From contig NZ_CP087135.1 in NCBI RefSeq assembly GCF_020911945.1, positions 248,001 through 312,000 of the forward strand: 64,000 nucleotides of DNA. The letters are read 5' to 3'. Position 1 is the stretch's first letter. Each line of letters begins with the position of its first letter. This document shows, piece after piece, positions 15,403 to 31,362 of this stretch. The position numbers and the translations under genes are program-made. Origin of the DNA: Flavobacterium galactosidilyticum (GTDB lineage: Bacteria > Bacteroidota > Bacteroidia > Flavobacteriales > Flavobacteriaceae). Below the pieces are notes generated by a model. The model searched no databases and had not been told where the DNA came from. It was given only the letters and a program-made list of their open reading frames with translations.

Positions 15403-15415
15403 AACCTAAAATAAT

Positions 15416-16150
15416 TTAAATTGTCCCAGAATCAACGTGAATATTTTGTCCAGTAATGGATTCCGCACCATCAGAAAGTAAAAAACAGATTGTCTTGGCG
15501 ACCGAATTTAATGTTGTAGGTACTTTCAATGATGTTCTTTTGAAAATTCTATTTCTCTGTTCATCTGAAAGTGTTCCACTCATTTCCGTTTCCATAAATC
15601 CGGCTACGAGACAATTACTTCTTATTTGCTTTTCTCCCCATTCTCTTGCTGTATTTTTCGAAAAAGCCTCTAAAGCCCCTTTAGAACCGGCATACATTGA
15701 CAAACCTTTATAACCCGTATGAACACTTATAGATGAGACATGAACAATACTACCTTTAGTACGATTAAATATCATATTGCGCAACACAGATTTAACCGCA
15801 AGTAATGGACTGAACACATTGACTTTAAACATAGATTCCAATAAGTCCACATTCATATTTGTAATAATATCATCGTATGCAACAGCTGCATTATTTACAA
15901 AACCATGAATGGCAATTTTATTATTAAGCCATTCTTTAAAAATTTTAACTTCTACCTCATTAGTAGCATACAAGTCAAATTTTTTAAAAAATACTCTTCC
16001 ACTATATTGCTTAAGAAGTGAATTAAACTCCGGCGTAAGGGTTCTGCTAACCCCATAAACATTTGCACCATTAAGAAGAAGTTCTTTGATTATCTCTAAA
16101 CCAAGTCCTCTGGAACATCCTGTAACTAAAATATTTTTACTTTGTAACAT
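15416..16150 (-). CDS. SDR-family reductase, FabG-like (SDR1)
   Basis: This 244-residue Rossmann-fold oxidoreductase carries the cofactor motif TGCSRGLG (about 10-17), the NNAA motif, the catalytic Ser in VHVSSISVHTG and YxxxK as YAGSK, and ends in the FabG-like TGQNIHVDSGTI. It probably reduces a 3-oxoacyl group on an acyl carrier protein. The start overlaps the ligase gene by 14 bases. Reduction of a sugar instead is possible, but the adjacent ligase, ACP and KASIII genes favour an acyl substrate. Confidence 0.8.
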   Translation of the reverse strand: MLQSKNILVTGCSRGLGLEIIKELLLNGANVYGVSRTLTPEFNSLLKQYSGRVFFKKFDLYATNEVEVKIFKEWLNNKIAIHGFVNNAAVAYDDIITNMNVDLLESMFKVNVFSPLLAVKSVLRNMIFNRTKGSIVHVSSISVHTGYKGLSMYAGSKGALEAFSKNTAREWGEKQIRSNCLVAGFMETEMSGTLSDEQRNRIFKRTSLKVPTTLNSVAKTICFLLSDGAESITGQNIHVDSGTI

Positions 16151-17369
16151 TTGCTCTGCTTATTTTTCCTGTTCGATTTAAATTTAACTTATCAACAAAA
16201 AATATTTTACGCGGAATTTTAAATTGTTGTAATTTCATCCCTAAAATATCTTTAATTTTTTTCTCTTCTATTTCAGCTCCTTTTTCTAAAACAATCTCCG
16301 CACAGATAAGATTTCCTAATACAGAATTTGCTTTCCCAAATACAAAAGCATTCTCAATTCCATCGATACTCCTTAGTTCTAATTCTACTTCATGCGGATT
16401 TACTTTGTATCCCCCTACATTTATCATTTCGTTTGATTTACCAATCAATTTGAAATAATGATCTGAATCATGTTTCCATTCAATAACATCGCCACTACAG
16501 TACCAGCCATTTTCTATCAAAAGATTCGACATTTGCCCTAATAATGACTCATTAATGTAGAGTACATTTTCTTTAATAACAATTTTATCCTTCAACCGCT
16601 CCGGGATATAAAAAAATTCACCTTCTGAACACAACAATGATCCTGCTTCAGTTGAAGCGTAAATATTTTTAATTTTTGCAAAAGGAAACATTCTTTTAAC
16701 TATCCTATACAAATTATCATCCGACTTTTCCCCTCCTAAAGTAACAGACTTAACATCATTAAAAAAAATATCTTTACTATTTAGTAATCTGTAAAATGTT
16801 GGTGTTGCTGAAATATGAGAAATTTCATATTTCAAAATCGATCGATTAATGGTTACTGCATCAATATTAAATAAATCAACCAAAGTGTTACTGTTAAATA
16901 AAGCCTGAAAGAATACCTGTAAACCCGCCATATGAGTAGCATTGAAAGCCAAACCCCATATTGAAGAGTCAAACTTTGGTCCAGTCTTAATTTCTCTACT
17001 AAACGAACTTACAGAGTGCACAACTTTTTTAGGAAGTCCAGTCGTGCCTGAAGTATAAATAGTAATTTGACTTTTTGACTCAGTTATTAACTTCAAATAT
17101 GATTTAAAAGAATCTAGTCCCAATCTTTCTACATAGACCACTTTCTCAGTATATTTTTCACCAACAAGCGAAATTATTTCGGAATCTGTAAAATCCTGAT
17201 CCAACAAGGTTACATTTTGGTTATGGATCAATGCCTTAATCAAATTAAGAAACAAGTCCACAGTTTTGATTTTATATGGATTTATAATAACACTATTTGA
17301 TTCATTTAAGTACCTGACAAGATCTTCATAACTAAAGGATACTGATTCATTTTCGTTAATGTAAAACAT
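16137..17369 (-). CDS. Adenylate-forming acyl ligase (ANL superfamily)
   Basis: This 410-residue enzyme activates a carboxylic acid with ATP. The phosphate-binding loop is YTSGTTGLPKK, the A5-type motif is YASTEAGSLL, the hinge region is GDVIEWKHDSDHYFKLIGKSNEMINVGGYKVNPHEVE, and the C-terminal catalytic lysine lies in NRTGKISR. It is shorter than long-chain acyl-CoA ligases (about 550 residues) because of a reduced N-terminal region, like ligases that load dedicated carrier proteins. The ACP gene ends 13 bases upstream, so loading of that ACP is the simplest idea (inference). Confidence 0.82.
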   Translation of the reverse strand: MFYINENESVSFSYEDLVRYLNESNSVIINPYKIKTVDLFLNLIKALIHNQNVTLLDQDFTDSEIISLVGEKYTEKVVYVERLGLDSFKSYLKLITESKSQITIYTSGTTGLPKKVVHSVSSFSREIKTGPKFDSSIWGLAFNATHMAGLQVFFQALFNSNTLVDLFNIDAVTINRSILKYEISHISATPTFYRLLNSKDIFFNDVKSVTLGGEKSDDNLYRIVKRMFPFAKIKNIYASTEAGSLLCSEGEFFYIPERLKDKIVIKENVLYINESLLGQMSNLLIENGWYCSGDVIEWKHDSDHYFKLIGKSNEMINVGGYKVNPHEVELELRSIDGIENAFVFGKANSVLGNLICAEIVLEKGAEIEEKKIKDILGMKLQQFKIPRKIFFVDKLNLNRTGKISRANVTK

Positions 17370-17382
17370 AGTTTATTACAAT

Positions 17383-17610
17383 TTATTTAGCCTCCAATAT
17401 ATCCAAAATTTCTCCTACAGTAGAAACAATTCCATTAGAGAATATATCAATATCAGTATCTTCCTCTATACGAACGGTTAATTCTGCTAGATCAAAAGAA
17501 TCTAATCCAATATCATCACGCAATTTTGCGTCTGAATTAATATCTGTTAAATGTTTCATTTTTTTACCTTCCAGTACTTCGTTAATTTTCAATAATAATA
17601 ATTCTTTCAT
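17383..17610 (-). CDS. Acyl carrier protein 1
   Basis: This 75-residue acidic helical protein has the phosphopantetheine-attachment serine at Ser38 in DIGLDSFDLAEL. The frame is open further upstream to 17706, but the ATG at 17610 (MKELLLLKINEV) gives a standard ACP length and lies 4 bases after the KASIII stop. It differs from ACP2 and ACP3, which have a WDSL attachment site. It is placed between KASIII-1 and the acyl ligase, both probable partners. Confidence 0.88.
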   Translation of the reverse strand: MKELLLLKINEVLEGKKMKHLTDINSDAKLRDDIGLDSFDLAELTVRIEEDTDIDIFSNGIVSTVGEILDILEAK

Positions 17611-17614
17611 CTTT

Positions 17615-18691
17615 TTAATATACTTTATAATCAATTGTTTTAAAAAATTTTGTTTTTGACAGATTTGTATAGCAGCCTGCCCAAGATAATCCAACACCAA
17701 AACCACACATTAAAACTTTATCCTTAGTAATTGGTTTATCTGAAATATGGCTTAACAACAACGGTATCGAACATGGCCCAGTATTTCCATAAGTTTCAAC
17801 TCCTAAAGGCACTTTTTCAGGAATAATTTTCAATTTACGGCGTAAATATTCAACCATAAAATTATTGGCCTGATGAAATAAAAATAAATCAACTTCAGTT
17901 TTAGACCATCTAGCTTTTTCTAATAGATCATCAACTAACTTTGGCACTTTATTTATAGCAAAATTAAAAATTTCAGTACCATTCATATACAAGTCATTTT
18001 CAGATCTGACATTTCCATCTTGATCCATTATTTCATTTGCAGTTAGATTTGAAACTGGTTTTCTGAATCCTCCGGCAGGAACTATTAACTCTGAAAATCC
18101 TGAACCTTTATTATGAATTTTAAAACCAATATCATCAATACCTCTTGTAACATATGTCGCCGAACCAGCGTCTCCAAAAACCATTCGTAAAGACTTGTCT
18201 TTAGGATTTATTAGTTTAGAAGTCGTATCTCCTGCTAAAACCAATACATTTTTACAAGCACCTGAATTTATCAATAAAGAAGCCTGGAACAAGCCAACAA
18301 CATAACCACTGCACCCTAATCTGATATCTAAACAAAAAACATTTTCATTAAGTCCTAATCGGCTTTGTAAAACATTGCTAGTTTGTGGTAAACAATAATC
18401 ATTAGTCTGAGAAACAAATACTAGTCCATCTATTTCATCTTTTACTATATCCATCTGCTCTATCAAATGTTCTGCACTTTGATAACATAAATCTGAAGCT
18501 GTAGTTGAATCATCCGTTATTCGCACTTCTTTAACCCCTGTAGTAGCAATGATTTTACGAACTTCTTCCTCACCATATACAGAACTTAATGAATCTAATT
18601 TTAAAACCTTTTCCGGAACGACTGTAGCAACCCCAACAATGCAGATATTTTTAAATACTGTTTCCAAATTAATTATTTTTAAACATAACAA
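17615..18691 (-). CDS. 3-oxoacyl-ACP synthase III family protein (KASIII-1)
   Basis: This 358-residue FabH-like condensing enzyme has the complete triad Cys127 (RLGCSGY), His273 (FHQAN) and Asn303 (YGNTGP). KASIII enzymes extend an acyl starter with malonyl-ACP, while some relatives (such as CerJ) transfer acyl groups to sugars or other acceptors. The first ATG (18691) overlaps the preceding SDR gene by 13 bases. The N-terminal 12 residues before FKNICIVGVATVVP look like an extension, so a slightly later start is possible. It is one of three paralogues in this locus, each with its own ACP gene. Confidence 0.88.
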   Translation of the reverse strand: MLCLKIINLETVFKNICIVGVATVVPEKVLKLDSLSSVYGEEEVRKIIATTGVKEVRITDDSTTASDLCYQSAEHLIEQMDIVKDEIDGLVFVSQTNDYCLPQTSNVLQSRLGLNENVFCLDIRLGCSGYVVGLFQASLLINSGACKNVLVLAGDTTSKLINPKDKSLRMVFGDAGSATYVTRGIDDIGFKIHNKGSGFSELIVPAGGFRKPVSNLTANEIMDQDGNVRSENDLYMNGTEIFNFAINKVPKLVDDLLEKARWSKTEVDLFLFHQANNFMVEYLRRKLKIIPEKVPLGVETYGNTGPCSIPLLLSHISDKPITKDKVLMCGFGVGLSWAGCYTNLSKTKFFKTIDYKVY

Positions 18692-19434
18692 GTTCTACCT
18701 CCATCTAATATAATATCCTGACCCGTCATCCATTTACTCGCATCTGAAAGTAAAAAAGTAATGCAATAAGCAACATCATCAGGTTCACCATATCCCAAAG
18801 GATATTTTTGTTCATCCAAAACAAGGTCTTCTTTTGTTAAATGCTGTCCTTCAGCATTATTAACCATTTCAGTTCTGACAATTCCAGGCGAAACTGTATT
18901 AACTCTTATTTTTTTATTGGCTAACTCTTTTGCAAAAACTTTTGAAGTAGCTATAAGAGCAGCTTTGTTCCCACAATAAAGAGAGCTACCAGGTATAGCG
19001 AAATGAGCCGCAATTGAAGCAAGTGAAACAATAGACCCACAAGAATTAATTTTCTTCTTTTTTACCAACATTTGTGTTAAAAACAAAAAAGCATCATAAT
19101 TTAATGATCGCTCCATTTCAAGAAATTCACGATTAATAAATTGTAAAGGAATACTATTAACTACTCCTGCAGAGTGAACAAACCCATCAATTTTAGAAAC
19201 ATTCTCTACAATCATTTTTATATCATCAATATTTCGCAAATCAGCTTCAATAGATACAACTTTTCCTTCACCTAGAATTTCCAGTTCTTCAAGTTTTTCT
19301 GTATTTCTACCAACTACATAGAGTGAACATCCTAAATTTATTAACAATCGACATGTTGCAAAACCAATTCCTGAAGTAGCTCCTGTTATTAAGATGTTTT
19401 TATTATTAATATCAAATCTATTGTTAAAAATCAT
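18679..19434 (-). CDS. SDR-family reductase, FabG-like (SDR2)
   Basis: This 251-residue Rossmann-fold enzyme has the cofactor loop TGATSGIG (about 18-25), the HSAG motif in place of NNAG, a catalytic Ser in SIVSLASIAAHF and YxxxK as YCGNK. It ends with the FabG-like TGQDIILDGGR. It overlaps the Rieske gene by 11 bases and KASIII-1 by 13 bases, so it belongs to the same tightly coupled operon. It is a second candidate 3-oxoacyl-ACP reductase, or it may oxidise or reduce the product of the neighbouring oxygenase. Confidence 0.8.
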   Translation of the reverse strand: MIFNNRFDINNKNILITGATSGIGFATCRLLINLGCSLYVVGRNTEKLEELEILGEGKVVSIEADLRNIDDIKMIVENVSKIDGFVHSAGVVNSIPLQFINREFLEMERSLNYDAFLFLTQMLVKKKKINSCGSIVSLASIAAHFAIPGSSLYCGNKAALIATSKVFAKELANKKIRVNTVSPGIVRTEMVNNAEGQHLTKEDLVLDEQKYPLGYGEPDDVAYCITFLLSDASKWMTGQDIILDGGRTCYV

Positions 19435-20521
19435 AAGTATTTATTTGTGAACAATAATGTTCATGAAATTCTTTTATCCTAAACTCTTCCTTATTAAGAT
19501 ACAAACTTTTGTTACTCATCGTTAATCCCTTTTGAACATTCTGAATTATCTCTTTGTCTTCATTTAAAATCTCATTCCCAAAATTAACTATATCAACATT
19601 TACAACATCCTGATAATTACGATAGTCCTCCATATTATTAATTTTACATTCAAAATATCGGGTACGAAGATTAGTCTCACAAAAACTATTAGGTAAAGCG
19701 TGACCAATATAAAAAGAAATCCCTTCAGTTGAAGAAATGAATAAATTCGGATAAATAAATAAATGATAATAGGTATCATGTTTAAATTCTCTATTATCAA
19801 GATACTTAAGTATTTTTTTTCTTTTTAGTGACGTTTCATTCTTTTCTACAGGTAAATGACCAGAGGAATTTCCATTGAAAAAATCAAAGTTTACAAATGG
19901 CTTTAGACCAATACCAAGGCGTTCCACCAACGAATTTTTATGAACAGGCAAACAATGATAACACTCCAAAACATTTTCCGATAGCAACTTCCAATTACAC
20001 TGATGCAAATTACAAGTATATGTTATTTTTTTTCCTAATCCTTCGGATATATCAATTAGTTTGTTGTAAAAAATCCCCAATTGATCTTCAATTGTTTTTG
20101 CTGATTTTCCAATATTCACAAAAACAAAGTCACCAACAATCTGAACTTCATATTGGTCTAGTAATAAATCTGATTCTTCCGGCGTTTCAAAGAATTCTTT
20201 TGCAAAAGCATTAATTGGTTTTCCTTCACTATTATACGTCCAATTATGGTATAAACACATTATTGGTCTTTTCCCAAAATCATTAATAAATATTTTATTG
20301 GCACGATGCGAACAGACATTTTTAAATGCACGGATTCCATCTTTTCCTGTATTCGTAACAAAATAGGAGTTTTGATTATATTCAACTACAAAATAACTGA
20401 ATCTTTCTGACAACTCAGATTTCATACAGGCAAATTGCCAATTGGCTTCAAAAACATCTTTAATTTCTGTTTCGAAATATTCTTTATTGGTATAATGAAA
20501 TGGTGTAAGTTTCTGTATCAT
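19424..20521 (-). CDS. Rieske non-heme iron oxygenase (alpha-subunit type)
   Basis: This 365-residue protein has a Rieske [2Fe-2S] site, Cys70-x-His72 (CSHR) and Cys89-x2-His92 (CLYHNWTY), followed by the mononuclear iron site at His189 and His194 in NVLECYHCLPVH. A probable acidic third ligand lies in the later EILNEDKEIIQNVQ. These are the hallmarks of aromatic-ring-hydroxylating-type oxygenases, many of which act on non-aromatic substrates. No reductase or ferredoxin gene is adjacent, so electrons must come from general partners. Being overlapped by SDR2 and 1 base after KASIII-2, it probably oxidises the acyl chain or the sugar made here (inference). Confidence 0.85.
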   Translation of the reverse strand: MIQKLTPFHYTNKEYFETEIKDVFEANWQFACMKSELSERFSYFVVEYNQNSYFVTNTGKDGIRAFKNVCSHRANKIFINDFGKRPIMCLYHNWTYNSEGKPINAFAKEFFETPEESDLLLDQYEVQIVGDFVFVNIGKSAKTIEDQLGIFYNKLIDISEGLGKKITYTCNLHQCNWKLLSENVLECYHCLPVHKNSLVERLGIGLKPFVNFDFFNGNSSGHLPVEKNETSLKRKKILKYLDNREFKHDTYYHLFIYPNLFISSTEGISFYIGHALPNSFCETNLRTRYFECKINNMEDYRNYQDVVNVDIVNFGNEILNEDKEIIQNVQKGLTMSNKSLYLNKEEFRIKEFHEHYCSQINTYDF

Positions 20522-20522
20522 A

Positions 20523-21575
20523 CTAGATGTGAATTATTGGAGTTACAATTACATTATTAGTCTCAACATACATAGCTCCCCATGACAAACCAACTCCAAA
20601 GCCTGAAAGAATCATTTTCAATGGTTTTTCTTGAATCTCATTTTGTATTTTATCTAATATTGTAATAGGAATAGTAGCAGAAGCAGAGTTCCCGTAATCA
20701 TATAGGGAATAGGGAACTTTTTCGACAGGTAATTTCAATCGCTTACGAATCATTTCATTTAAATACTTATTAGCCTGATGAAAAACAAAATAATCTAAAC
20801 TGTCAAAATCTATATTGTATTGACCAATTAACTGATTAACTGTTTTCGGCGCCGTTGATATTGCAAATGAAAACACCTCAGTCCCTATCATCGTCGCATC
20901 AATTCCTCTTAGGCATATACCATCCCCCTTCTCAACATATTCCAATGATTCTTCAGAAAAACGATTACGATAACCACCATCATTAATCATAATGTTTTGA
21001 AATCCAGAGCCATCATTCCCTAAATCAAAAAACATATCTGATGCAGTTGCATCCAATTCAAATGCAGTTGCAGTAGCAGCATCGGAGAATAAAGGCTGTG
21101 TACTTCTATCTTTCTTCGAAGCTTGCTTTGTTAACGTATCACCTGCTAATAAAACACCTTTTTTTATCTGATGTGACTGCATTAGTGAAGCTATCAAAAA
21201 ACTGCCATATATATAACCGCTACATCCCAATGGAACATCTAAACATAGGCATGTTTGTTCTAACCCTAAACGATCTTGTAGAATTATACTTTGCAAAGGC
21301 ACAACATATTCAGGTGTTTGAGTAATAACAATTAAAATCCCAACCTCACTTTTGTCCCACTTTAACAAATCCATTTGTTTGTTAAAAGCAGGTACAAATA
21401 AATCTGCCGTACAAGTATCTTCGTCTGTTACTCTTCTATAACGCACTCCAACAGTCTTTACATATTTCTCTGCATCATCTGAATCATTAAAGATGGAATT
21501 GGTCAAATTATCCTCGATATAAGCAGGGGCTACACCAACGATTGAACTTAATTTTACCCCTTTTACTGTAAACAT
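20523..21575 (-). CDS. 3-oxoacyl-ACP synthase III family protein (KASIII-2)
   Basis: This 350-residue FabH-like protein has the intact triad Cys118 (PLGCSGY), His266 (FHQAN) and Asn296 (YGNSAS). The fold and length match KASIII. Its ATG shares one base with the stop codon of ACP2 (TAATG), so translation of the two is coupled and they are very likely partners. The same arrangement occurs in the ACP3/KASIII-3 pair. It stops one base before the Rieske oxygenase start. Confidence 0.88.
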   Translation of the reverse strand: MFTVKGVKLSSIVGVAPAYIEDNLTNSIFNDSDDAEKYVKTVGVRYRRVTDEDTCTADLFVPAFNKQMDLLKWDKSEVGILIVITQTPEYVVPLQSIILQDRLGLEQTCLCLDVPLGCSGYIYGSFLIASLMQSHQIKKGVLLAGDTLTKQASKKDRSTQPLFSDAATATAFELDATASDMFFDLGNDGSGFQNIMINDGGYRNRFSEESLEYVEKGDGICLRGIDATMIGTEVFSFAISTAPKTVNQLIGQYNIDFDSLDYFVFHQANKYLNEMIRKRLKLPVEKVPYSLYDYGNSASATIPITILDKIQNEIQEKPLKMILSGFGVGLSWGAMYVETNNVIVTPIIHI

Positions 21576-21802
21576 TATGCTGTAGCTATATTATATAATT
21601 CCTGAATAATTACCGCGTTTTTTATTTGATCACCCGATAGTTTCTTTCCTAAATTAAAATCAAAATGCGCAATCAAAGACAATGCTGTTAATGAATCCCA
21701 CTCATCTAAATCTTTAAAATTGGTTTCTAATGTCATTAAAGAAATCTCTGTTTCCATAAATACTTCTTCTTGTAACTCCTTAATAAAATTCTCTGCTGTC
21801 AT
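21575..21802 (-). CDS. Acyl carrier protein 2
   Basis: This 75-residue carrier protein has the attachment serine at Ser37 in FKDLDEWDSLTALSLI. The WDSL context is shared with ACP3 and not with ACP1. It overlaps KASIII-2 by one base. A run of ATTT repeats (21803-21821) just upstream separates it from the PglD-like gene. Confidence 0.87.
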   Translation of the reverse strand: MTAENFIKELQEEVFMETEISLMTLETNFKDLDEWDSLTALSLIAHFDFNLGKKLSGDQIKNAVIIQELYNIATA

Positions 21803-21823
21803 ATTTATTTATTTATTTATTTA

Positions 21824-22468
21824 TTAAAATTTTTGTTTCATTGCTGGAACACCAAAATATACTCCATCATCCTTTATACTTTTGAACAAGCAAGAATGCA
21901 AATTTACAGTATTTCTGTCACCTACCGTTATATTCTGAATAATTGAGGAGTTTAAATTAAATGTATTTAATTTACCAATTTTTACACATCCTGAAATAGA
22001 TGTTCTAGGACCAAATAAATTAAAATCACCAATAGTTACATCATGACCAAAACCTGATGTCCCGTTTAAAATATTGAAATTTCCAATTGAAATATTACAA
22101 GTAAACATAACATGATGTCCAATAATATTACCAAGCCCTATACGATTAGAATTATCAAAATCAACGGACGGATCAATGATATTTGGAAAAATAAAATTCA
22201 TGTCTTTAAGTTTTTCAACAATAGAAGTTCTTACAGTATTATTAGCTATTGCGATACAAATATTTTTAACTTCGATTCTATTACTTAATATATCACTTAA
22301 ATTACCAACAACTTTTATCCCATAAATTATATCGCTTCCGAGAACATTAGGATTGTCGTCTATAAAACCTATAATTTTAAACCTAGGATTTATTTTATTT
22401 ATCGATTTGATATAATAAGCCACTTCTTTTCCCAACCCGCTTGCGCCTATTATTAATATATCTTCCAT
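21824..22468 (-). CDS. NeuD/PglD-family sugar acyltransferase
   Basis: This 214-residue protein has an N-terminal Rossmann-like nucleotide-sugar-binding part (IIGASGLGKEVAYYI) and a C-terminal left-handed beta-helix of hexapeptide repeats. The conserved catalytic-type histidine is present in GFGHDVTIGDFN, and it ends in the usual GVPA motif. PglD N-acetylates the 4-amino group of a UDP-amino sugar. Here it sits between the PglC-like gene and the ACP2/KASIII-2 pair. It may therefore use acetyl-CoA, or possibly an acyl-ACP made by its neighbours. Confidence 0.85.
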   Translation of the reverse strand: MEDILIIGASGLGKEVAYYIKSINKINPRFKIIGFIDDNPNVLGSDIIYGIKVVGNLSDILSNRIEVKNICIAIANNTVRTSIVEKLKDMNFIFPNIIDPSVDFDNSNRIGLGNIIGHHVMFTCNISIGNFNILNGTSGFGHDVTIGDFNLFGPRTSISGCVKIGKLNTFNLNSSIIQNITVGDRNTVNLHSCLFKSIKDDGVYFGVPAMKQKF

Positions 22469-22470
22469 TT

Positions 22471-23076
22471 TTAATTATTTCCTTTAAATGCTTCTGTTGT
22501 AACTTGCCCTTCCATATTTATTCCTTCTCTTAAAAATACTTTTTTTAAAGTTAAAAAATATATTTTAATATCTAATATCAAACTAACATGATTAACATAC
22601 CAAACATCATATTCAAATTTTTTCTCCCAACTAATTGCATTCCTACCATTAACTTGCGCCCAACCAGTAATTCCTGGTTTAACTTCATGCCTTCGACATT
22701 GTATATTATTGTATAAAGGCAAATATTCAGGCAATAAAGGTCTTGGCCCTATTAAACTCATATCTCCTTTTAAAACATTTAACAATTGAGGTATTTCATC
22801 TAAAGATGTTTTACGAACAAATTTACCAATGTTAGTTAATCGATAATCATCAGATAATAGATTCCCATCATGATCTTTTTTATCATTCATTGTTTTAAAT
22901 TTAATAATCTTAAAGATTACTCCATTTAGTCCAGGACGAAATTGAAAGAAAAAAGGTTTTCCTTGATTTGCAATATACAATCCAATTGTCACCACTATAA
23001 ACAAAGGACTTAATAAACATAAACCCAACAACGCTAAAACAAAATCAATTATTCTTTTAAAAAAAAACTTATACAT
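22471..23076 (-). CDS. Initiating sugar-phosphate transferase (PglC-like)
   Basis: This 201-residue monotopic phosphoglycosyl transferase starts repeat-unit assembly by placing a sugar-phosphate on undecaprenyl phosphate. It has the N-terminal membrane hairpin ([22 protein letters not shown]), KFKTMND, the DE-type catalytic pair in [27 protein letters not shown] and the [12 protein letters not shown] motif. The short length (no multi-membrane WbaP-like N-terminus) matches PglC. It overlaps the GT4 gene by 8 bases and is followed 2 bases later by the PglD-like gene, supporting a diNAcBac-like first sugar. Confidence 0.92.
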
Positions 23077-24277: not shown

Positions 24278-24288
24278 AGAAACTTAAA

Positions 24289-25431
24289 TTAATTAGATTC
24301 ACTCCATACCACACGCTTTATATAATCCGTATAACTCAAAATGATTCGGATCACTTTCTCCGATACATTAGGCATCGAATAATCTGCTACTGCTCTAAAA
24401 TTGCGCTCTACTCCTCTCTTCTGTGTTTGCAATTGAACCAGTCCCTGCATTATTCTTTCTGGATTCAATCCCACCATCATTACGGAAGCTTCCTCCATTG
24501 CTTCAGGACGTTCATGTGCATCACGAATATTTAAAGCTCGAAAATTCAGAGTCGATGATTCTTCAGAAATAGTACCGCTATCTGACAAAACCGCATAGGA
24601 TTTCATTTGCAAAGCATTATAATCATTAAATCCCATTGGTTTCAAAAACTGCACTTCTGGTCTCATGACAATCTGTTTAGAATCAATCATCTTTTGTGTT
24701 CTCGGATGTGTACTTACAATAATAGGATAACCATACTTTTCTGCAATCAAATTCATGCTTTCCATCAAACCTTTAAAGTTCTTTTCACTATTGATATTTT
24801 CCTCCCTATGAGCTGATACAACAAAATATTTATTTTCTTCTAAATTTAACTTTTCTAAAACAGCTGAAGCATTAATATTTGGTAAATAATGATGTAACAC
24901 TTCATACATTGGAGAACCCGTTTTAATAATCCTATCGGCAGGCAATCCTTCTCTTAATAAATATTCACGAGCAATGGAACTATAGGTCAAATTTATGTCT
25001 GAAACGTGATCTACAATTTTCCGGTTAGTTTCTTCTGGTACTCTCTGATCAAAACAGCGATTACCAGCTTCCATGTGAAAAATAGGAATGTGACGTTTCT
25101 TTGCTGGAATAGCACACAAACAACTATTCGTATCTCCCAAAACTAAAAAAGCATCAGGGTTTTCGCTCTCTAGCAAAGGATCAATTTTAATTAATATTTG
25201 ACCAATTGTTTCAGTTGCTGATACACCCGCAGCATTAAGGAAAAAATCAGGTTTGCGTATCCCCAAATCATCAAAGAAAATTTGGTTTAATTCGTAATCA
25301 TAATTTTGACCTGTATGAACAATAACGTGCTCAATAGCTTCCGAAGAATCTAAAGCAGCTATTACTCTTGACAATCGTATAATTTCGGGTCTTGTACCCA
25401 CTACAGTCATTACTTTTAGTTGTGCTTTCAT
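24289..25431 (-). CDS. fnlC: UDP-N-acetylglucosamine 2-epimerase-type enzyme of L-FucNAc synthesis
   Basis: This 380-residue non-hydrolysing 2-epimerase has a GT-B-like fold. Signatures are VGTRPEIIRLSRVI, VHTGQNYDYELN, LGDTNSC, FHMEAGNRCFDQRVPEETNRKIVDH and SDSGTISEE. The GNRCFDQRVPEE form is typical of the FnlC/CapG branch rather than plain WecB. It would convert UDP-L-PneNAc to UDP-L-FucNAc as the last step after FnlA and FnlB, which are encoded just upstream. Confidence 0.9.
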   Translation of the reverse strand: MKAQLKVMTVVGTRPEIIRLSRVIAALDSSEAIEHVIVHTGQNYDYELNQIFFDDLGIRKPDFFLNAAGVSATETIGQILIKIDPLLESENPDAFLVLGDTNSCLCAIPAKKRHIPIFHMEAGNRCFDQRVPEETNRKIVDHVSDINLTYSSIAREYLLREGLPADRIIKTGSPMYEVLHHYLPNINASAVLEKLNLEENKYFVVSAHREENINSEKNFKGLMESMNLIAEKYGYPIIVSTHPRTQKMIDSKQIVMRPEVQFLKPMGFNDYNALQMKSYAVLSDSGTISEESSTLNFRALNIRDAHERPEAMEEASVMMVGLNPERIMQGLVQLQTQKRGVERNFRAVADYSMPNVSEKVIRIILSYTDYIKRVVWSESN

Positions 25432-25462
25432 TTTAGTTCTTTATTCTTAATCGTTAAAAATT

Positions 25463-26581
25463 TTATACATTCTCGAAATACGTATCCGGATCATTTGAAT
25501 CATAAAACTCATTAATCCAAAAATTTGTGTAAAGCACATCTTCACCTATATTTTTTATATTATGAGTATACCAGATTGGCATATCAACATAAGCCGGTTC
25601 ATTGCCGTCTAAATAAAAATCTAATACTTCGTCCGTACCAATGCGACGTAATTGTATCAATGCCTTTCCCTTGATAACAGCAAAACGCTCTATTTTTCTT
25701 GTATGATAGTGATTTCCTCTTGTTATCCCAGGAACAGTAGTCGAAAACGATACTTGCCCTCCAACTCCCAAACGAATGATTTCCACAAAAGAACCTCTTG
25801 GATCAGTATGCTCAATAAATTTTACAGGAAAATGATTCGCAATATCCATATAACAACGAAACGTATTGAATAAATTCAACTCGAATGTGTTATTTATTGA
25901 AGGAATAATTCCGCCATCCTGATATTGTTTTTTATAAGATTCAAGAAGCAATAATAATTGAGACACCTTAGACTCTGAAGTATGAGCAACCAATATTTCA
26001 GGATTCCCTTCATTATTTCTAATTTCGGCAAGAATCACATTGACTAATTCGCCAACATAAATCAACTTCATATCGCCATCAACTTCAATGACGGGAATTT
26101 CATTATGAGATAATTTATGACAAAAAGTTGCTACTACTGAATTGTAATTGGGATGGCCAAAAGGACCAAATACATTAGGAATTATCATTCCTGTGAATTT
26201 TCCACCATCAGTTTTTGCCCAATCAATCATTAATTCACGTCCAACTTTTTTGGACTTCCCATACAAGTTATCCCTTTCTTCTTGAGTAGAAGAGGAGAAT
26301 AAAACATGTGCTTTAGAACCAGTGGATTTAAGAGCCTTTACTAATTTCTGAACTAAACCAATATTAGTGTCATAAATAACTTGAGGGTCATTATGACGAT
26401 TCATCGCTGCTAAATGTACAATTACATCACAATCTCCTACAAAAGCATTTAGTTTATTTACATCCTCAAACATTTCTTTTTGAAAATCCACTCGGATAAA
26501 TTCTTCTGTAAACAGACCTATTGTGTTGTACAAATGTGTCCCAACAAATCCAGCTTGTCCTGTTATTCCTATTTTTAACAT
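25463..26581 (-). CDS. fnlB: Bifunctional reductase/cupin of UDP-L-FucNAc synthesis (FnlB/CapF)
   Basis: This 372-residue protein has an N-terminal extended-SDR domain (GITGQAGFVGTHLY, IVHLAAMNRHND, GKSKKVGRELMIDWA) joined to a C-terminal cupin of about 110 residues (FVEIIRLGVGGQVSFSTTVPGITRGNHYHTRKIERFAVIKGKALIQLR). This two-domain architecture is diagnostic for CapF/FnlB, which reduces the 4-keto intermediate made by FnlA. The NHYH metal ligands are present. Its operon place between the cupin gene and fnlC fits. Confidence 0.92.
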   Translation of the reverse strand: MLKIGITGQAGFVGTHLYNTIGLFTEEFIRVDFQKEMFEDVNKLNAFVGDCDVIVHLAAMNRHNDPQVIYDTNIGLVQKLVKALKSTGSKAHVLFSSSTQEERDNLYGKSKKVGRELMIDWAKTDGGKFTGMIIPNVFGPFGHPNYNSVVATFCHKLSHNEIPVIEVDGDMKLIYVGELVNVILAEIRNNEGNPEILVAHTSESKVSQLLLLLESYKKQYQDGGIIPSINNTFELNLFNTFRCYMDIANHFPVKFIEHTDPRGSFVEIIRLGVGGQVSFSTTVPGITRGNHYHTRKIERFAVIKGKALIQLRRIGTDEVLDFYLDGNEPAYVDMPIWYTHNIKNIGEDVLYTNFWINEFYDSNDPDTYFENV

Positions 26582-26590
26582 TGTGTAATT

Positions 26591-27013
26591 TTAAATTTTA
26601 AAATAATCAATATGATAACGATATTCATCTTCAATTTCTCCTAATAAATAATCAGCCATTATTAATAGTTTAGAATTAGATTCTAAAGATTGAATGCTAC
26701 TTACATACCCTTGAGGAACATGAATTACATTTAATTTATCTGAATTAATTACAAAAGAAAATACTTTTAACCCTTTTGTAGGTTGGTCCCAATTGTCAAT
26801 CTTAATTAAGTCGATTTTAAATTTACCTGAAATTGCGCTGAACCACCTCTGCTCAATTTTATGTCCTTGCCATCCCCTAACAAATTCAAGATCTATATTG
26901 TTTATGATATAAATCCTTTTTATTTGTGAAGCGTCAAATTCATTATTAAAAAACAACGAGCCTCTCGCGTCAGAATAGCAATCTCCTTCTATCACACTAG
27001 GTTGCACTACCAT
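26591..27013 (-). CDS. Small cupin, WxcM/FdtA-like sugar ketoisomerase or epimerase
   Basis: This 140-residue single-domain cupin resembles the RmlC/WxcM-C/FdtA group: DARGSLFFNNEFDASQIKRIYIINN, VRGWQGHKIEQRWFSAISGKFKIDLIKID and VIHVPQGYVSSIQSLE. Such proteins isomerise 4-keto-6-deoxy nucleotide sugars, and in fnl operons of this type the exact role is unclear. It lies 2 bases from fnlA and 9 bases from fnlB, so it should act on the same intermediates. Confidence 0.75.
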   Translation of the reverse strand: MVVQPSVIEGDCYSDARGSLFFNNEFDASQIKRIYIINNIDLEFVRGWQGHKIEQRWFSAISGKFKIDLIKIDNWDQPTKGLKVFSFVINSDKLNVIHVPQGYVSSIQSLESNSKLLIMADYLLGEIEDEYRYHIDYFKI

Positions 27014-27015
27014 TG

Positions 27016-28047
27016 TTAACCAGGCATTTGTTGTACGTCCTCTCCAAATACTTCTTTACGAATCAATGGCAAAGTTGACAAAAGTTTTTTCATTCCTTCT
27101 ACTCCTTGCTGCTCTGTATTATGCGAATGGTAATCTTCTATCAGAGAAACATCTTCTTCTCCTTCTGAAAAATATTGTGCATAATTCAAATCCCTATTAT
27201 CAGCAGGTATGCGATAGAAATCCCCCATATCTTCAGCTTTGACCATTTCTTCACGAGTACACAAGGTTTCGTACAATTTCTCACCATGTCGTGTTCCGAT
27301 AATTTTAATTTCATTATCAGCATTGCAGAGTTCTTTAAGTGCTTGTGCCAAATCTCCAATCGTTCCAGCTGGCGCCTTATTCACAAATAAATCTCCTGAA
27401 TTCCCATGCTCAAAAGCAAATAAAACCAATTCGACAGCCTCATCCAATGACATTAAGAAACGAGTCATATTTGGATCAGTGATAGTAATTGTTTTGCCTT
27501 CTTTAATTTGTTTTAAAAACAGTGGAATTACAGAACCCCTAGAAGCCATTACATTACCATATCGTGTCAAACAAACAGTAGTATCAGATAAGTTTCTGGA
27601 TGCTGCAACAGCGACTTTTTCCATTAAAGCTTTAGAAATCCCCATGGCATTAATTGGATAAGCCGCTTTATCAGTACTTAAACAAATTACTTTCTTTACC
27701 TTATTTGCTCCTGCCGCGTCAATTACATTTTGAGTTCCAAAAACATTTGTCTTTGTTGCTTCTAAAGGAAAGAACTCACAAGATGGAACTTGTTTTAAAG
27801 CAGCAGCATGAAATACGTAATCTACCCCACGCATCGCACGTTCCACACTACTGTAATCTCTTACATCACCAATATAAAACTTAAGCTTATCATTTTTCAA
27901 TTGATTCCGCATGTCGTCTTGCTTCTTCTCATCACGAGAAAAAATACGTATTTCTTTAAAATGATCGGTGTGAAGAAATCGGTTTAAAACTGCATTTCCA
28001 AACGAGCCTGTACCACCTGTAATTAAAAGGGTTTTCTTTTTAAACAT
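27016..28047 (-). CDS. fnlA: UDP-GlcNAc 4,6-dehydratase/5-epimerase (FnlA/CapE/WbjB type)
   Basis: This 343-residue extended SDR has the cofactor loop TGGTGSFGNAVL, RDEKKQDDMRN, HAAALKQVPSCEF and the STDKAAYPINAMGISKALMEK active site (MxxxK form rather than YxxxK, as in this group). The last 25 residues form a typical tail. It converts UDP-GlcNAc to a 4-keto-6-deoxy sugar with inversion at C5, starting UDP-L-FucNAc synthesis. It could also feed the DegT aminotransferase at 14.3 kb, since no separate PglF gene is seen. Confidence 0.93.
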   Translation of the reverse strand: MFKKKTLLITGGTGSFGNAVLNRFLHTDHFKEIRIFSRDEKKQDDMRNQLKNDKLKFYIGDVRDYSSVERAMRGVDYVFHAAALKQVPSCEFFPLEATKTNVFGTQNVIDAAGANKVKKVICLSTDKAAYPINAMGISKALMEKVAVAASRNLSDTTVCLTRYGNVMASRGSVIPLFLKQIKEGKTITITDPNMTRFLMSLDEAVELVLFAFEHGNSGDLFVNKAPAGTIGDLAQALKELCNADNEIKIIGTRHGEKLYETLCTREEMVKAEDMGDFYRIPADNRDLNYAQYFSEGEEDVSLIEDYHSHNTEQQGVEGMKKLLSTLPLIRKEVFGEDVQQMPG

Positions 28048-28064
28048 TCAATTCTATTTTCTAA

Positions 28065-29069
28065 TTAAAATTCTATCACTGTTGCACCATACGAATAACC
28101 AACGCCAAAACCTACAATGAGAACCTTCATGCCTTTTTTAATTTTTTTAGAAGCAATAGCTTCACTCATAACAATAGGAATTGTTGAAGAAACAGTATTT
28201 CCAATATCCTCAAAGTACATTAAAAATTTATCTTGTGGAATTTTTAATTTCCTACGTATATAATCTAACATAAACTTATTAGCTTGATGAAATATAAATA
28301 AATCTACATCTTCTATATTTAATCCATTAGAAGCAAGACATTCTTCAACTAATATTGGAACGGAAGCCGTTGTAAATTTAAATATTTCCTGACCATTCAT
28401 ATAAAGGTTATCATCATTTTTAAAGAATTCACCATCTATATAAACATCATCACTTTTTTGCTTCGAAAATTTAGCTGCACCATTCTTTACTATGAGATTA
28501 TCAGCTCCTGACCCATCAGTACCGAAAACAAAATTGCAAATATTTCCAGCTTTTGACCCCGATGAAATTAAACAAGCGGCAGCTGCATCTCCGAAAATTG
28601 TTCTGTTTGATTTATCTTTTTTATTTATATATTTACTATAAGTTTCAGAAGTAATCAACAAAACATTTTTAGCAATTCCGCTAGCTATCAATCCCTTTGC
28701 TAAACCCAGGCCATAAACAAAACCTGAACAACCCAAATTAAAATCTAAAGCTCCGCAATTCTTAGACAAACCTAATTTATCTTGAACTACGCATGCTGTT
28801 GTTGGCAAAAAGTAATCTGGACTTTGAGTACACAATAATACAAAGTCTATACATGACTTGTCTATTAAATGTTCTTCAAATAATTTAATCGAAGCTTTAA
28901 TTGCAAGGTCACTTACAAATTCATCTTCTGAAGCAATAGTTCTTTTAAATATACCTGTTTTACTAGATATTTTTTCTGCAGTCCATTCAGGAAATTCATT
29001 GTTTAAATCTTCATTTGTTAATGTGTTTTTTGGAAGATAAACTGAAATTGAATTAATATATGAATTCAT
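28065..29069 (-). CDS. 3-oxoacyl-ACP synthase III family protein (KASIII-3)
   Basis: This 334-residue FabH-like protein has the intact triad Cys114 (NLGCSGF), His261 (FHQAN) and Asn291 (IGNTVS). Its start codon shares one base with the ACP3 stop (TAATG), the same junction as ACP2/KASIII-2. It is separated from the other two KASIII genes by the seven-gene FucNAc/PglC/PglD block, so it may serve a different acyl group. No reductase or ligase gene lies directly beside it. Confidence 0.88.
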   Translation of the reverse strand: MNSYINSISVYLPKNTLTNEDLNNEFPEWTAEKISSKTGIFKRTIASEDEFVSDLAIKASIKLFEEHLIDKSCIDFVLLCTQSPDYFLPTTACVVQDKLGLSKNCGALDFNLGCSGFVYGLGLAKGLIASGIAKNVLLITSETYSKYINKKDKSNRTIFGDAAAACLISSGSKAGNICNFVFGTDGSGADNLIVKNGAAKFSKQKSDDVYIDGEFFKNDDNLYMNGQEIFKFTTASVPILVEECLASNGLNIEDVDLFIFHQANKFMLDYIRRKLKIPQDKFLMYFEDIGNTVSSTIPIVMSEAIASKKIKKGMKVLIVGFGVGYSYGATVIEF

Positions 29070-29314
29070 TATTTATCTACTTTTTCTATATTCTCTTCAA
29101 TGTACTTAAATAAAGCAGTTGGAGTCTCAATAGTATTTAATACACTATTCTCAAGATTAATCTTATAATCATCTTCAATGAATGCAATTATAGAGAATCT
29201 AGTTAATGAATCCCAAGTATCTAAATCCTTAAATTTAGTTTCCATCGTTAATTTTAAAGCGTCTATTTCTTCAAATTGAATTTTAAGCCCTGATAAAAAA
29301 TCATCTTTTTTCAT
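29069..29314 (-). CDS. Acyl carrier protein 3
   Basis: This 81-residue acidic helical protein has the attachment serine at Ser36 in FKDLDTWDSLTRFSII. It closely follows the ACP2 pattern (FKDLD-W-DSLT) and differs from ACP1. It lies 7 bases after the propeller-like gene and overlaps KASIII-3 by one base, which marks it as the carrier for that synthase. Confidence 0.87.
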   Translation of the reverse strand: MKKDDFLSGLKIQFEEIDALKLTMETKFKDLDTWDSLTRFSIIAFIEDDYKINLENSVLNTIETPTALFKYIEENIEKVDK

Positions 29315-29321
29315 GTCTTTC

Positions 29322-30425
29322 TTAATTTATTATTTTATGAATTTCTGTGTCTAAGTTATTATTTTTCAAACTAATATTATGTGCAAATAAAAACTCCGTT
29401 TCATTTATACCCGTAGGAAAAGTAATTGCACCAAATTGAAATAAAATAAATGGAAACATATCCTTCTTATTTCTTGTTAAGCTAGCAAATCCCTTTTCTA
29501 AATTACCTCCAACAATGTGAGAAAATCCCTCTTTAATCCCAGGCCCAGGCTGACGATCTAAAAATTTAAAAAACCTTCCTTTTGATTCGCTATCTCCTTC
29601 TACAGAAGTAGAAAAAAATAAATTATCTTTAACTTTACAACCATAAATAGCCGGACCATTTATTTCGCAAATGAAATCAGACACCCATTCATCGTTTTCT
29701 TTTTCATATAAAATCCGTATAGAATTGGTTTCAAATTGACTATCTGTTGCATAAACAATTCCTTTTTCCTCAGGAAAAGCAACACATGCCCTAAAAATTT
29801 GTTCTCCCCTCAAAATTGGTTTAACATCTTTAAAATCATTTTTAGCCATCCATATTCCTGAAGCATTATCAAAATCACCTGTTAATATCCAGAGACAGTT
29901 TCTATAACTATCCGGTATTATTGCATGTACATGCTCAATAATACCTTCTGGAAAAGAATAAACAATTATCCATTTTCCATTTAAAAGTCTCTTGTATATA
30001 TTAACAGATTCTCTTTTAAAATTACCAAAATATTCACCAAAATATAATGTGTCATCAAAACTACTTAAATTTTCAACTTTCGCTATATTTAAAGGTCTAT
30101 TTCCTCGTGGAATATCAAAAGTTACTTTGTATGAATTTGTTAAAATATTAATTTCAAAAAATTTTTTATCAAAAACAACCAATAATTTGTCATCTGAAAT
30201 TGCCACAGCATAACGAACACCAAGCCTTAAAACTCTCCATATCAAACCAAACTTTGAAAAAAAACCTAATATTTTAGAGCATGGCAGCGAAAGTAGAAAC
30301 TTTTTATCTTCAGTTGAAATTTTATATATGTATAAATTGTTACTTTTTGAAATAAGAACTTCGTCATTATTTAGAACAGATAATACATTAAAACCCTTTA
30401 ATTTTGAATTAAATTCTAATTCCAT
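29322..30425 (-). CDS. Propeller-like protein of unknown function
   Basis: This protein has 367 residues, no signal peptide and no obvious membrane segment. Repeated strand-rich units (DEVLISKSNNLYIYKIS, DDKLLVVFDKKFFEIN, DDTLYFGEYFGN, EHVHAIIPDSYRNCLWILTGD, KGIVYATDSQFETNSIRIL) suggest a soluble beta-propeller. I do not recognise a family. It overlaps the AAC(3)-like gene by 17 bases and precedes ACP3, so it belongs to the acyl/sugar operon. A role as a scaffold or as a sugar-modifying enzyme cannot be told apart from sequence alone. Confidence 0.7.
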   Translation of the reverse strand: MELEFNSKLKGFNVLSVLNNDEVLISKSNNLYIYKISTEDKKFLLSLPCSKILGFFSKFGLIWRVLRLGVRYAVAISDDKLLVVFDKKFFEINILTNSYKVTFDIPRGNRPLNIAKVENLSSFDDTLYFGEYFGNFKRESVNIYKRLLNGKWIIVYSFPEGIIEHVHAIIPDSYRNCLWILTGDFDNASGIWMAKNDFKDVKPILRGEQIFRACVAFPEEKGIVYATDSQFETNSIRILYEKENDEWVSDFICEINGPAIYGCKVKDNLFFSTSVEGDSESKGRFFKFLDRQPGPGIKEGFSHIVGGNLEKGFASLTRNKKDMFPFILFQFGAITFPTGINETEFLFAHNISLKNNNLDTEIHKIIN

Positions 30426-31362
30426 TTTTTTTCTTTACATTAAAATAAGGATAACCTTTATCATTTTTTGAATTTAGAAAATCTATTAATTCTTTAGATT
30501 TTAAAAATTCTAACAGCACACCGTCTATTGTAACTGTTTTTAATATATTCGCCGCTATAAGGTCTTTACACAACGTTCTTTCAGCAAAATGTAATTTACC
30601 CCATTTAGGTTTACGTTCTTTTACTTTAACTATTTCATCAAAACTTTTATCTATAACCCTAAATTTCCTTTCACTATACCAGTTACTAATAGGCCAATTA
30701 TCCCCCATTACTTCTTCAGCAACATGCATTATTGTTAAACTATGTGTTAAGTCGTTACCTAGTCCTACGACAACAGCGTTGTTATCTACACAAAATTTCC
30801 AAGATGAATTAACTCCACAAGATGAATTTAGTTCACCGCTAATATTTTTTGCAATCATCTCTTCAGCATATCTTCCAATGGCCACAACTGGGTTAATAGG
30901 AAATCTACTAATCTTTGAGTTTTTGTGTTTCAACATAAAGAAAGGCAATACTCCAGTCCACACCCTTGACTTATGAACATCATATTTTACAATTTGATTT
31001 GGATGGCTTCCTTCTAAGTTAATCATTTTTTTTTCCTCAGGAAATATTCTAGCAGAATTCATTACCAACGTACCTTGGTCTCCTAATAAATCAAGTAGTT
31101 CTTCGATTATAGCATTTGGAGATTTACCTGTTCCTTCAATTGATTCATAAGTACCATGCAAAACCAGAATATCTCCTTTTTTAACACCAAAATCAATTAA
31201 TTGATTTTTAATTTTATTGAAATCTTTTAATTTAGATATATGTATCGAGTTACCTTTAAATCTCGAAACTAATCTCTTATTATTCCAATAAATTCTTCTA
31301 ATAAGAAGCTCAATATATGGAGATAATGATAATATCTTATTTTTTATTCCAGAATTTGCCAT
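30409..31362 (-). CDS. AAC(3)-family N-acyltransferase
   Basis: This 317-residue protein has the AAC(3) fold signature: LIDFGVKKGDILVLHGTYESIEGTGKSPNAIIEELLDLLGDQGTLVMNSA near 50-110, and later VVVGLGNDLTHSLTIMHVAEE, corresponding to the catalytic glutamate/histidine region. AAC(3) enzymes acylate amino groups of sugars using acyl-CoA. In glycan loci such proteins are thought to acylate amino sugars. With a neighbouring ACP/KASIII pair it is the best candidate for transferring the locus-made acyl group (inference). Antibiotic resistance is unlikely in this setting. Confidence 0.8.
   Translation of the reverse strand: MANSGIKNKILSLSPYIELLIRRIYWNNKRLVSRFKGNSIHISKLKDFNKIKNQLIDFGVKKGDILVLHGTYESIEGTGKSPNAIIEELLDLLGDQGTLVMNSARIFPEEKKMINLEGSHPNQIVKYDVHKSRVWTGVLPFFMLKHKNSKISRFPINPVVAIGRYAEEMIAKNISGELNSSCGVNSSWKFCVDNNAVVVGLGNDLTHSLTIMHVAEEVMGDNWPISNWYSERKFRVIDKSFDEIVKVKERKPKWGKLHFAERTLCKDLIAANILKTVTIDGVLLEFLKSKELIDFLNSKNDKGYPYFNVKKKNGIRI

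Follow-up and report, generated by a model that had tools for sequence, protein, structure and literature searches.

A question raised by the surface polysaccharide locus of Flavobacterium galactosidilyticum is what three 3-ketoacyl-ACP synthases of the KASIII family (KAS1, KAS2 and KAS3), each adjoining its own acyl carrier protein (ACP), contribute to it; namely, whether they form one acyl-assembly module or several. The window analysed here is a stretch of 64,000 nucleotides, positions 248001–312000 of a single 3.53-Mb chromosome, and its acyl genes are interspersed among polysaccharide genes at 15416–31362, all on the minus strand. The sequence-only reading treated them as a set of three that makes acyl groups on dedicated carriers and places them on amino sugars. 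The gene types that it named are all present in this one locus, and alignment confirms that each synthase keeps the Cys-His-Asn triad (E. coli FabH C112/H244/N274) and that the three ACPs keep the attachment serine, in a DSF/DSL motif, as the sole invariant column of nine aligned ACPs. The grouping has changed: the data favour a nine-gene cassette with two KAS genes and a separate set with one. We propose that these are two acyl-decoration sets in a surface polysaccharide locus that follows the plan of the F. psychrophilum O-polysaccharide, with the cassette acyl group N-linked to Qui2NAc4N, and put the probability of this reading at roughly 0.48. The genes concerned, with window coordinates, are as follows.

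14266–15402, minus strand: DegT-type sugar aminotransferase (PF01041), predicted PglE role; flank of the cassette
15416–16150, minus strand: SDR1, a FabG-like reductase of the short-chain dehydrogenase/reductase (SDR) type (PF13561/PF00106); cassette
16137–17369, minus strand: AMP-forming acyl ligase, 410 amino acids (PF00501, PF13193, core motifs); cassette
17383–17610, minus strand: ACP1, LDSF type, 75 amino acids (PF00550); cassette
17615–18691, minus strand: KAS1, KASIII family, probably beta type; cassette
18679–19434, minus strand: SDR2, FabG-like reductase; cassette
19424–20521, minus strand: Rieske non-haem iron oxygenase, alpha subunit type (PF00355, PF00848, motifs); cassette
20523–21575, minus strand: KAS2, KASIII family, beta type; cassette
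21575–21802, minus strand: ACP2, WDSL type; cassette
21824–22468, minus strand: PglD/NeuD/VioB-type N-acyltransferase (PF17836); cassette
22471–23076, minus strand: PglC-type phosphosugar transferase (PF02397); cassette border at its 3′ end
23069–24277, minus strand: family 4 glycosyltransferase (GT4)
24289–28047, minus strand: WecB-, WbcJ- and FdtA-like genes and an FnlA-like gene, presumably of a UDP-L-FucNAc-type pathway
28065–29069, minus strand: KAS3, KASIII family, alpha type; second set
29069–29314, minus strand: ACP3, WDSL type; second set
29322–30425, minus strand: orfX, no Pfam or NCBIfam match
30409–31362, minus strand: AAC(3)-family acyltransferase (PF02522); second set

The closest precedent is described in the passages of Cisar et al. 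2019 (PMC6519341) on the F. psychrophilum O-polysaccharide, where the repeat comprises L-Rha, L-FucNAc and D-Qui2NAc4NR, and R is 3,5-dihydroxyhexanoyl by experimental structure. The genes predicted for R are wfpC and wfpE (3-ketoacyl-ACP synthases), wfpD (ACP), wfpF (reductase) and wfpG (PglD homologue); they differ between strains, the C-terminal sequence of the PglC-like WfpB differs accordingly, and the lipopolysaccharide is antigenically different among strains with different R-group genes. The sequence-only reading knew of single KASIII sets only, a view superseded by this published set, which has two KAS and an acyl group of solved structure.

The evidence for a discrete cassette comes from its borders. 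The nine genes at 15416–22468 (pglD, ACP2, KAS2, Rieske, SDR2, KAS1, ACP1, ligase and SDR1), which lie between pglC and the DegT aminotransferase gene, recur in identical order in an Algoriphagus metagenome-assembled genome (MAG), where one contig carries pglD-ACP2-KAS2-Rieske-SDR2 and the start of KAS1 and another carries the rest of KAS1, ACP1, the ligase and SDR1. Protein identity is 80–91% (91% for SDR1), except for 70% over the 93-residue KAS1 start, and the DNA of window positions 15415–18434 and 18413–22497 is 83% identical to the MAG contigs. One housekeeping FabH, the only background gene compared, is 60% identical between the two genomes, so recent transfer is likely and the cassette has probably moved horizontally. 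The flanks (14271–15402 and most of 22453–28051) match F. xinjiangense locus L028 at 76–83% DNA identity, and between these matching flanks L028 carries a different acyl cassette. The DNA match switches at 15402/15415 and at 22453–22497; the second switch coincides with the 3′ end of pglC, and WfpB of F. psychrophilum is variable in the corresponding part. Because the borders switch between the Algoriphagus and F. xinjiangense matches, the nine genes appear to be an exchangeable R-group cassette. As in a wfp-type cassette, genes for a KAS, an ACP, a reductase and a PglD-type acyltransferase stand together, are placed between pglC and a 4-aminotransferase gene, and are exchanged as a unit.

The phylogeny of the three synthases that the sequence-only reading called for was run on 63 rows, thinned from 152 at 70% identity, and sorted the synthases into two kinds. 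KAS3-type (alpha) sequences are split from KAS1/KAS2-type (beta) sequences, with a support of 97 for the beta side and of 98 for the alpha side after five long or off-cassette rows were dropped and one was added. KAS2 falls in a beta clade of 15 rows (support 99) and is firmly assigned to this type; KAS1 groups with beta (support 98.9) and is probably of the same type; KAS3 is alpha, and clusters with synthases of three other Flavobacterium loci (L137, L141 and L147; support 90, not starred). KAS3 also scores above the cut-off of an NCBIfam KAS III subfamily, whose models KAS1 and KAS2 match under the cut-off, and has 3gwa as its nearest PDB sequence. The Trp32 aromatic of FabH stacks on coenzyme A (CoA). 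Four columns from this position, Trp or Tyr occurs in 57 of 65 KAS3-type rows, Tyr in at least 1 of 42 KAS2-type rows and neither among the KAS1-type rows listed; the window residues are Trp in KAS3, Glu in KAS1 and Asp in KAS2. If the residue stacks on CoA as in FabH, alpha synthases would start from acyl-CoA and beta synthases would elongate carrier-bound acyl groups.

To place the oxygenase, named genome contigs were scanned with a Rieske alignment, which gave 28 loci. KAS genes lie nearby in 22 and are absent in 6 (L041, L042, L045–L048). Seven of the 22 are from Bacteroidota (Algoriphagus, Flavobacterium, Weeksellaceae and Chryseobacterium) and 15 from Pseudomonadota, including sphingomonads, Methylobacterium, Rhodanobacter, Dyella and Massilia; 20 have an alpha and beta KAS pair, the exceptions being L021, on a short contig, and L023, with no alpha KAS seen in 21 kb. 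Since the loci on named contigs were selected through their Rieske protein, the association is judged on the Flavobacterium set, whose loci are related to each other and were picked by KAS2 likeness: a KAS2-like match at E ≤ 1e-42 occurs in 65 of 398 genomes, own included (at most 5 candidates scored per genome), and we compared 70 stretches from 64 other genomes and one more from the own genome, naming genes by best BLAST match to window proteins. A Rieske gene is present in 25 of the 28 stretches with an alpha and beta pair (absent in L078, L112 and L113) and in 1 of the 43 without it; that stretch (L101) is ended by a contig edge, and its genome has a KAS2-type gene on a separate contig (L100). 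A PglD homologue accompanies 43 of the 45 loci with a KAS pair and a Rieske gene. A core of Rieske, paired KAS, ACP, SDR and PglD-type genes recurs in Bacteroidota and Pseudomonadota.

Six of these loci (L079, L109, L110, L111, L140 and L146) share the order PglC-alpha KAS-ACP-beta KAS-Rieske-SDR-PglD-DegT, which is that of wfpB-C-D-E-F-G if the wfp letters follow gene order. L078 and L112 have the same order minus the Rieske gene, plus an extra PglC-like match between PglD and DegT, and the beta KAS of L078, L079 and L109 (the rows kept in the tree) form one clade with a support of 98. The two groups differ mainly by the Rieske gene and thus offer a natural comparison for the effect of the oxygenase. 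The simplest reading is that the oxygenase would work on a chain already processed by both synthases. Other arrangements also occur: L138, L142 and L148, from Flavobacterium, have two KAS1-like synthases and an SDR1-like gene near PglC and DegT, with no Rieske or ligase gene detected, and L036 and L040 have two Rieske-type genes within one acyl cassette region. A Rhodanobacter cassette (L043:2804–13331) is close to a pilin gene, a PMT_2-like protein and glycan genes; with the pilin gene so near, its use is perhaps wider than O-antigen (pilin or another glycan).

The window form has in addition a ligase, ACP1 and SDR1, a trio that appears to be a portable acyl-loading unit joined to KAS1 in the cassette, where it may replace acetyl-CoA priming. 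The ligase is found at E ≤ 1e-60 in 4 of the 398 Flavobacterium genomes, own included, and at E ≤ 1e-80 only in its own genome among a 296-genome phylum sample, a sample that says little because relatives at 45–50% identity are numerous in a protein search. In genome G393, ACP1, ligase and SDR1 stand alone (L154:8967–11160; 76, 84 and 87% protein and 84% DNA identity) near metE-like and outer-membrane genes; this genome additionally holds a Rieske cassette (L092). ACP1, ligase and SDR1 genes (L155) and ligase and SDR1 genes (L156) also occur in glycan loci, beside hexapeptide-type proteins and with no KAS detected. The best PDB matches of the ligase include oxalyl-, 4-hydroxybutyrate- and malonyl-CoA ligases. 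WbeL of Vibrio cholerae O1 is presumably an acyl ligase as well. Activation of an amino acid, as for a pyroglutamyl-type group, was also considered and is not favoured, the sequence resembling acyl ligases more than amino-acid A domains.

SDR1 and SDR2 both retain TGxxxGxG and S-Y-K, the ligase retains its core motifs, and the Rieske protein has CxH...CxxH and E186-H189-H194-D322, invariant across 18 aligned relatives; we take the SDR, ligase and Rieske motifs to have their customary meanings. The Rieske cluster and the Glu-His-His-Asp iron site are thus both present, as expected of carnitine/betaine monooxygenase-like proteins, and the nearest PDB sequence is the oxygenase subunit of carnitine monooxygenase. 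The PglD-family protein matches TIGR03570 with 152.7 bits, under the cut-off of 160.8, has VioB as its best PDB match, and is counted among the acyl genes. The 75-residue protein at 17383–17610 is a better reading of ACP1 than the listed 107-residue open reading frame (ORF) with a GTG start.

KAS3, ACP3 and the AAC(3)-family gene, perhaps with orfX, appear to form another set, equipped with a transferase of its own, at 28065–31362. In L137, L141 and L147, the alpha KAS adjoins an ACP, and the stretch showed neither a beta KAS nor a Rieske gene; in L137 a PF02522 protein stands beside the alpha KAS, comparable to the one near KAS3 in the window, in L141 an AMP-binding protein adjoins the ACP, and in L147 a GNAT protein is nearby. 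Genomes G249 and G397 have a complete alpha, beta and Rieske cassette plus a third, alpha-type KAS about 14–16 kb away near wza/wzz (L103, with an AMP ligase-like protein, and L104, with an ACP), so that three KAS genes and a Rieske gene in one region are not unique to the window. Searched with KAS3, the Algoriphagus MAG yielded KAS1, KAS2, a FabH-like protein and nothing further. The L137-type grouping, the extra KAS of G249 and G397 and the absence of a KAS3-like match in the MAG together favour reading KAS3, ACP3 and the AAC(3)-type gene as a separate set. The AAC(3)-family protein matches PF02522 with 71.8 bits (gathering cut-off 25) and passes no curated NCBIfam AAC(3) model (best 59.6 bits versus a cut-off of 270); we make no claim of drug resistance. 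Relatives of orfX were found, none giving a function among the best 120 of 187, and one is named 6-bladed beta-propeller. At L137:7101–10442, genes for a DUF4910/DUF2172 protein, the PF02522 protein, the alpha KAS and the ACP are contiguous; cytidylyltransferase and aminotransferase genes share this locus, which is possibly of the nonulosonic acid type.

In the scheme that we propose, the substrates, the length of the chain, the site of oxygenation, the sequence of reactions and the acceptor of set 2 are predictions. The ligase would load a small carboxylic acid onto ACP1, KAS1 and KAS2 would add two malonyl-derived units on ACP1/ACP2, and SDR1 and SDR2 would reduce the keto groups. The Rieske oxygenase, supplied by an unlinked reductase, would oxygenate the carrier-bound chain; the PglD homologue would then N-acylate a sugar that we take to be UDP-Qui2NAc4N, which PglC would transfer to the lipid carrier. 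Set 2 (KAS3, ACP3, the AAC(3)-type enzyme and perhaps orfX) may build and transfer a separate short acyl group. If this is true, the starter ligase, two condensations, reduction, oxygenation and transfer would make glycan acyl chemistry predictable from genes. More tentatively, and with less confidence than we give the two-set reading, the Rieske/double-KAS cassette may be a widespread transferable mini polyketide line for oxygenated short glycan acyl groups in two phyla; its window form would be ligase-primed, an ACP-loaded acid replacing the acetyl-CoA-primed alpha KAS, and its acyl group would be new to glycans.

Several observations weigh against the two-set reading. The placement of KAS1 with alpha is not rejected (AU test, P = 0.166), the Algoriphagus MAG is of unknown completeness with its cassette split over two contigs, and the trio exists elsewhere without KAS genes. 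The cassette encodes no reductase partner for the Rieske protein, and the best NCBIfam model for the DegT protein is the LegC family (371 bits versus a cut-off of 420). For the second set, the AAC(3)-type proteins of the window and L137 are only 23% identical over 156 residues, and the window protein has no relative at E ≤ 1e-15 in the other 397 Flavobacterium genomes. Finally, an alpha KAS is present in 45 of 48 KAS-bearing Rieske loci (the same 45 have alpha and beta), and the only firm alpha synthase at this locus is KAS3; since Rieske cassettes elsewhere carry an alpha KAS, KAS3 could serve set 1.

The last point feeds the strongest competitor, that there is one chain and three synthases, in which KAS3 converts acetyl-CoA to acetoacetyl on ACP3 for elongation by KAS2 and KAS1. 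KAS3 alone could fill the alpha role in the window, it has a Trp close to where FabH has Trp32, and all the genes are on the same strand and tightly spaced. However, KAS3-ACP3 lies outside the exchanged DNA, KAS3 groups with alpha KAS from loci without beta KAS and Rieske genes, G249 and G397 have their extra alpha KAS on top of a complete cassette, and the Algoriphagus MAG has the cassette with no KAS3-like gene found. We consider a single chain the less likely reading; three KAS-ACP pairs as one conserved set are likewise not favoured by the tree and the MAG and locus comparisons, and are retained as a rival. The original proposal of an acyl group built on dedicated carriers and destined for an amino sugar agrees with the PglC/PglD/DegT/Fnl gene framework and has parallels in F. 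psychrophilum and P. syringae; a single three-KAS set for it is doubtful. Less likely still are three sets, with ACP1, ligase and SDR1 making their own acyl group from a free acid apart from the KAS2-Rieske and KAS3-AAC(3) groups: the trio without a detected KAS in L154, and ligase and SDR1 beside hexapeptide-type genes in L155 and L156, would fit, but the cassette holds just one PglD-type transferase, and KAS1, ACP1, ligase and SDR1 travel together with KAS2 and Rieske in the Algoriphagus MAG. A role in making a free lipid, or some other metabolite with no connection to the glycan, is very improbable, for although the enzyme types are common to secondary metabolism and no glycan gene was seen among six neighbours scanned around the L154 trio, a PglD homologue accompanies nearly all loci with the pair and Rieske, and the cassette sits between pglC and an aminotransferase gene, with the F. 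psychrophilum precedent.

The minus-strand block encodes Wza-, Wzz-, EpsG- and Wzx-type proteins, FnlA, WbcJ and WecB homologues, GT4, PglC, PglD and the DegT aminotransferase; in NCBIfam the WecB model is above its cut-off, and the FnlA and WbcJ models are best-scoring but under theirs. About 6.3 kb of sugar genes separate KAS3-ACP3 from ACP2. ORFs overlap at 16137–16150, 18679–18691, 19424–19434, 21575, 23069–23076, 29069 and 30409–30425, counted on longest ORFs, which leaves start positions unsure; judged by gene spacing, a single operon is plausible. The DegT protein is 82% identical to that of L028, and the PglE model gave no match for it in the NCBIfam scan. A PglF homologue (79%) is encoded at chromosome positions 183950–185890, outside the window, so UDP-Qui2NAc4N is plausibly made. 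Four PF00175 matches occur in the genome, of which two were examined by Pfam scan; an unlinked three-domain FAD/NAD/2Fe-2S protein (L163), with PaaE as its best model, under cut-off, is a candidate electron donor for the Rieske protein, and no PaaA or PaaC match was found in the genome. Between rmlC and DegT (12034–13742) lie a gene of 343 codons without a Pfam match and an Amj-like gene (under the Pfam cut-off), both also beside DegT in L079 and L146. A 421-residue protein without a Pfam match (32193–33458) adjoins Wzx-type and EpsG-type genes and is possibly a second polymerase-like membrane protein.

Comparison with known systems places the cassette among acyl cassettes of surface glycans. 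The sequence-only reading held a set with an oxygenase to be undescribed; we found no functional account of Rieske genes in acyl/ACP cassettes of surface glycans in the portion of the open-licence full-text literature covered, and the main text of Rochat 2017 (PMC5601056) mentions neither Rieske nor acyl. The gene association itself recurs in the 22 Rieske loci with KAS genes and in a table in PMC3826837 that lists Xanthomonas XCV2007–XCV2013 consecutively as Rieske, acetyltransferase, two SDRs, 3-oxoacyl-ACP synthase, ACP and aminotransferase. Those genes, likened to the window by description only, differ in their flagellar neighbours and in the one KAS named, and are uninterpreted in that table. 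The passages of PMC3441752 on Vibrio cholerae O1 wbeL, also likened by description only, give it a putative ATP-binding domain, predict it to be necessary for tetronate on the O-antigen amino sugar, and name no KAS or Rieske genes. In P. syringae, according to the relevant passages of PMC3927599, a single KAS gene vioS, the reductase gene vioR, an ACP gene and vioB go with 3-hydroxybutyryl-viosamine; like the window, this system combines KASIII, reductase, ACP and an acyltransferase acylating an amino sugar, but it has one KAS, a flagellin glycan, dTDP-viosamine and no oxygenase in its seven ORFs. The Rieske cassettes of Flavobacterium, Chryseobacterium, sphingomonads, Rhodanobacter and others (L022–L044 and L079–L146) share alpha and beta KAS, SDR and, in most cases, ACP and PglD, and unlike the window have an alpha KAS instead of KAS1 and no ligase-ACP1-SDR1 trio detected beside them. 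F. psychrophilum wfpC–wfpG are closest in plan: they comprise two KAS, an ACP, a reductase and a PglD-type transferase, and their O-polysaccharide locus also has Fnl, PglC and PglE; in contrast to the window, the passages of PMC6519341 concerned mention neither a Rieske nor a ligase gene, and no additional ACP or reductase. Because the window has a ligase and a Rieske gene, its product would probably be other than 3,5-dihydroxyhexanoyl. The cassette adds a variant to the wfp/vio acyl cassettes, through which bacterial surface coats are already known to be diversified.

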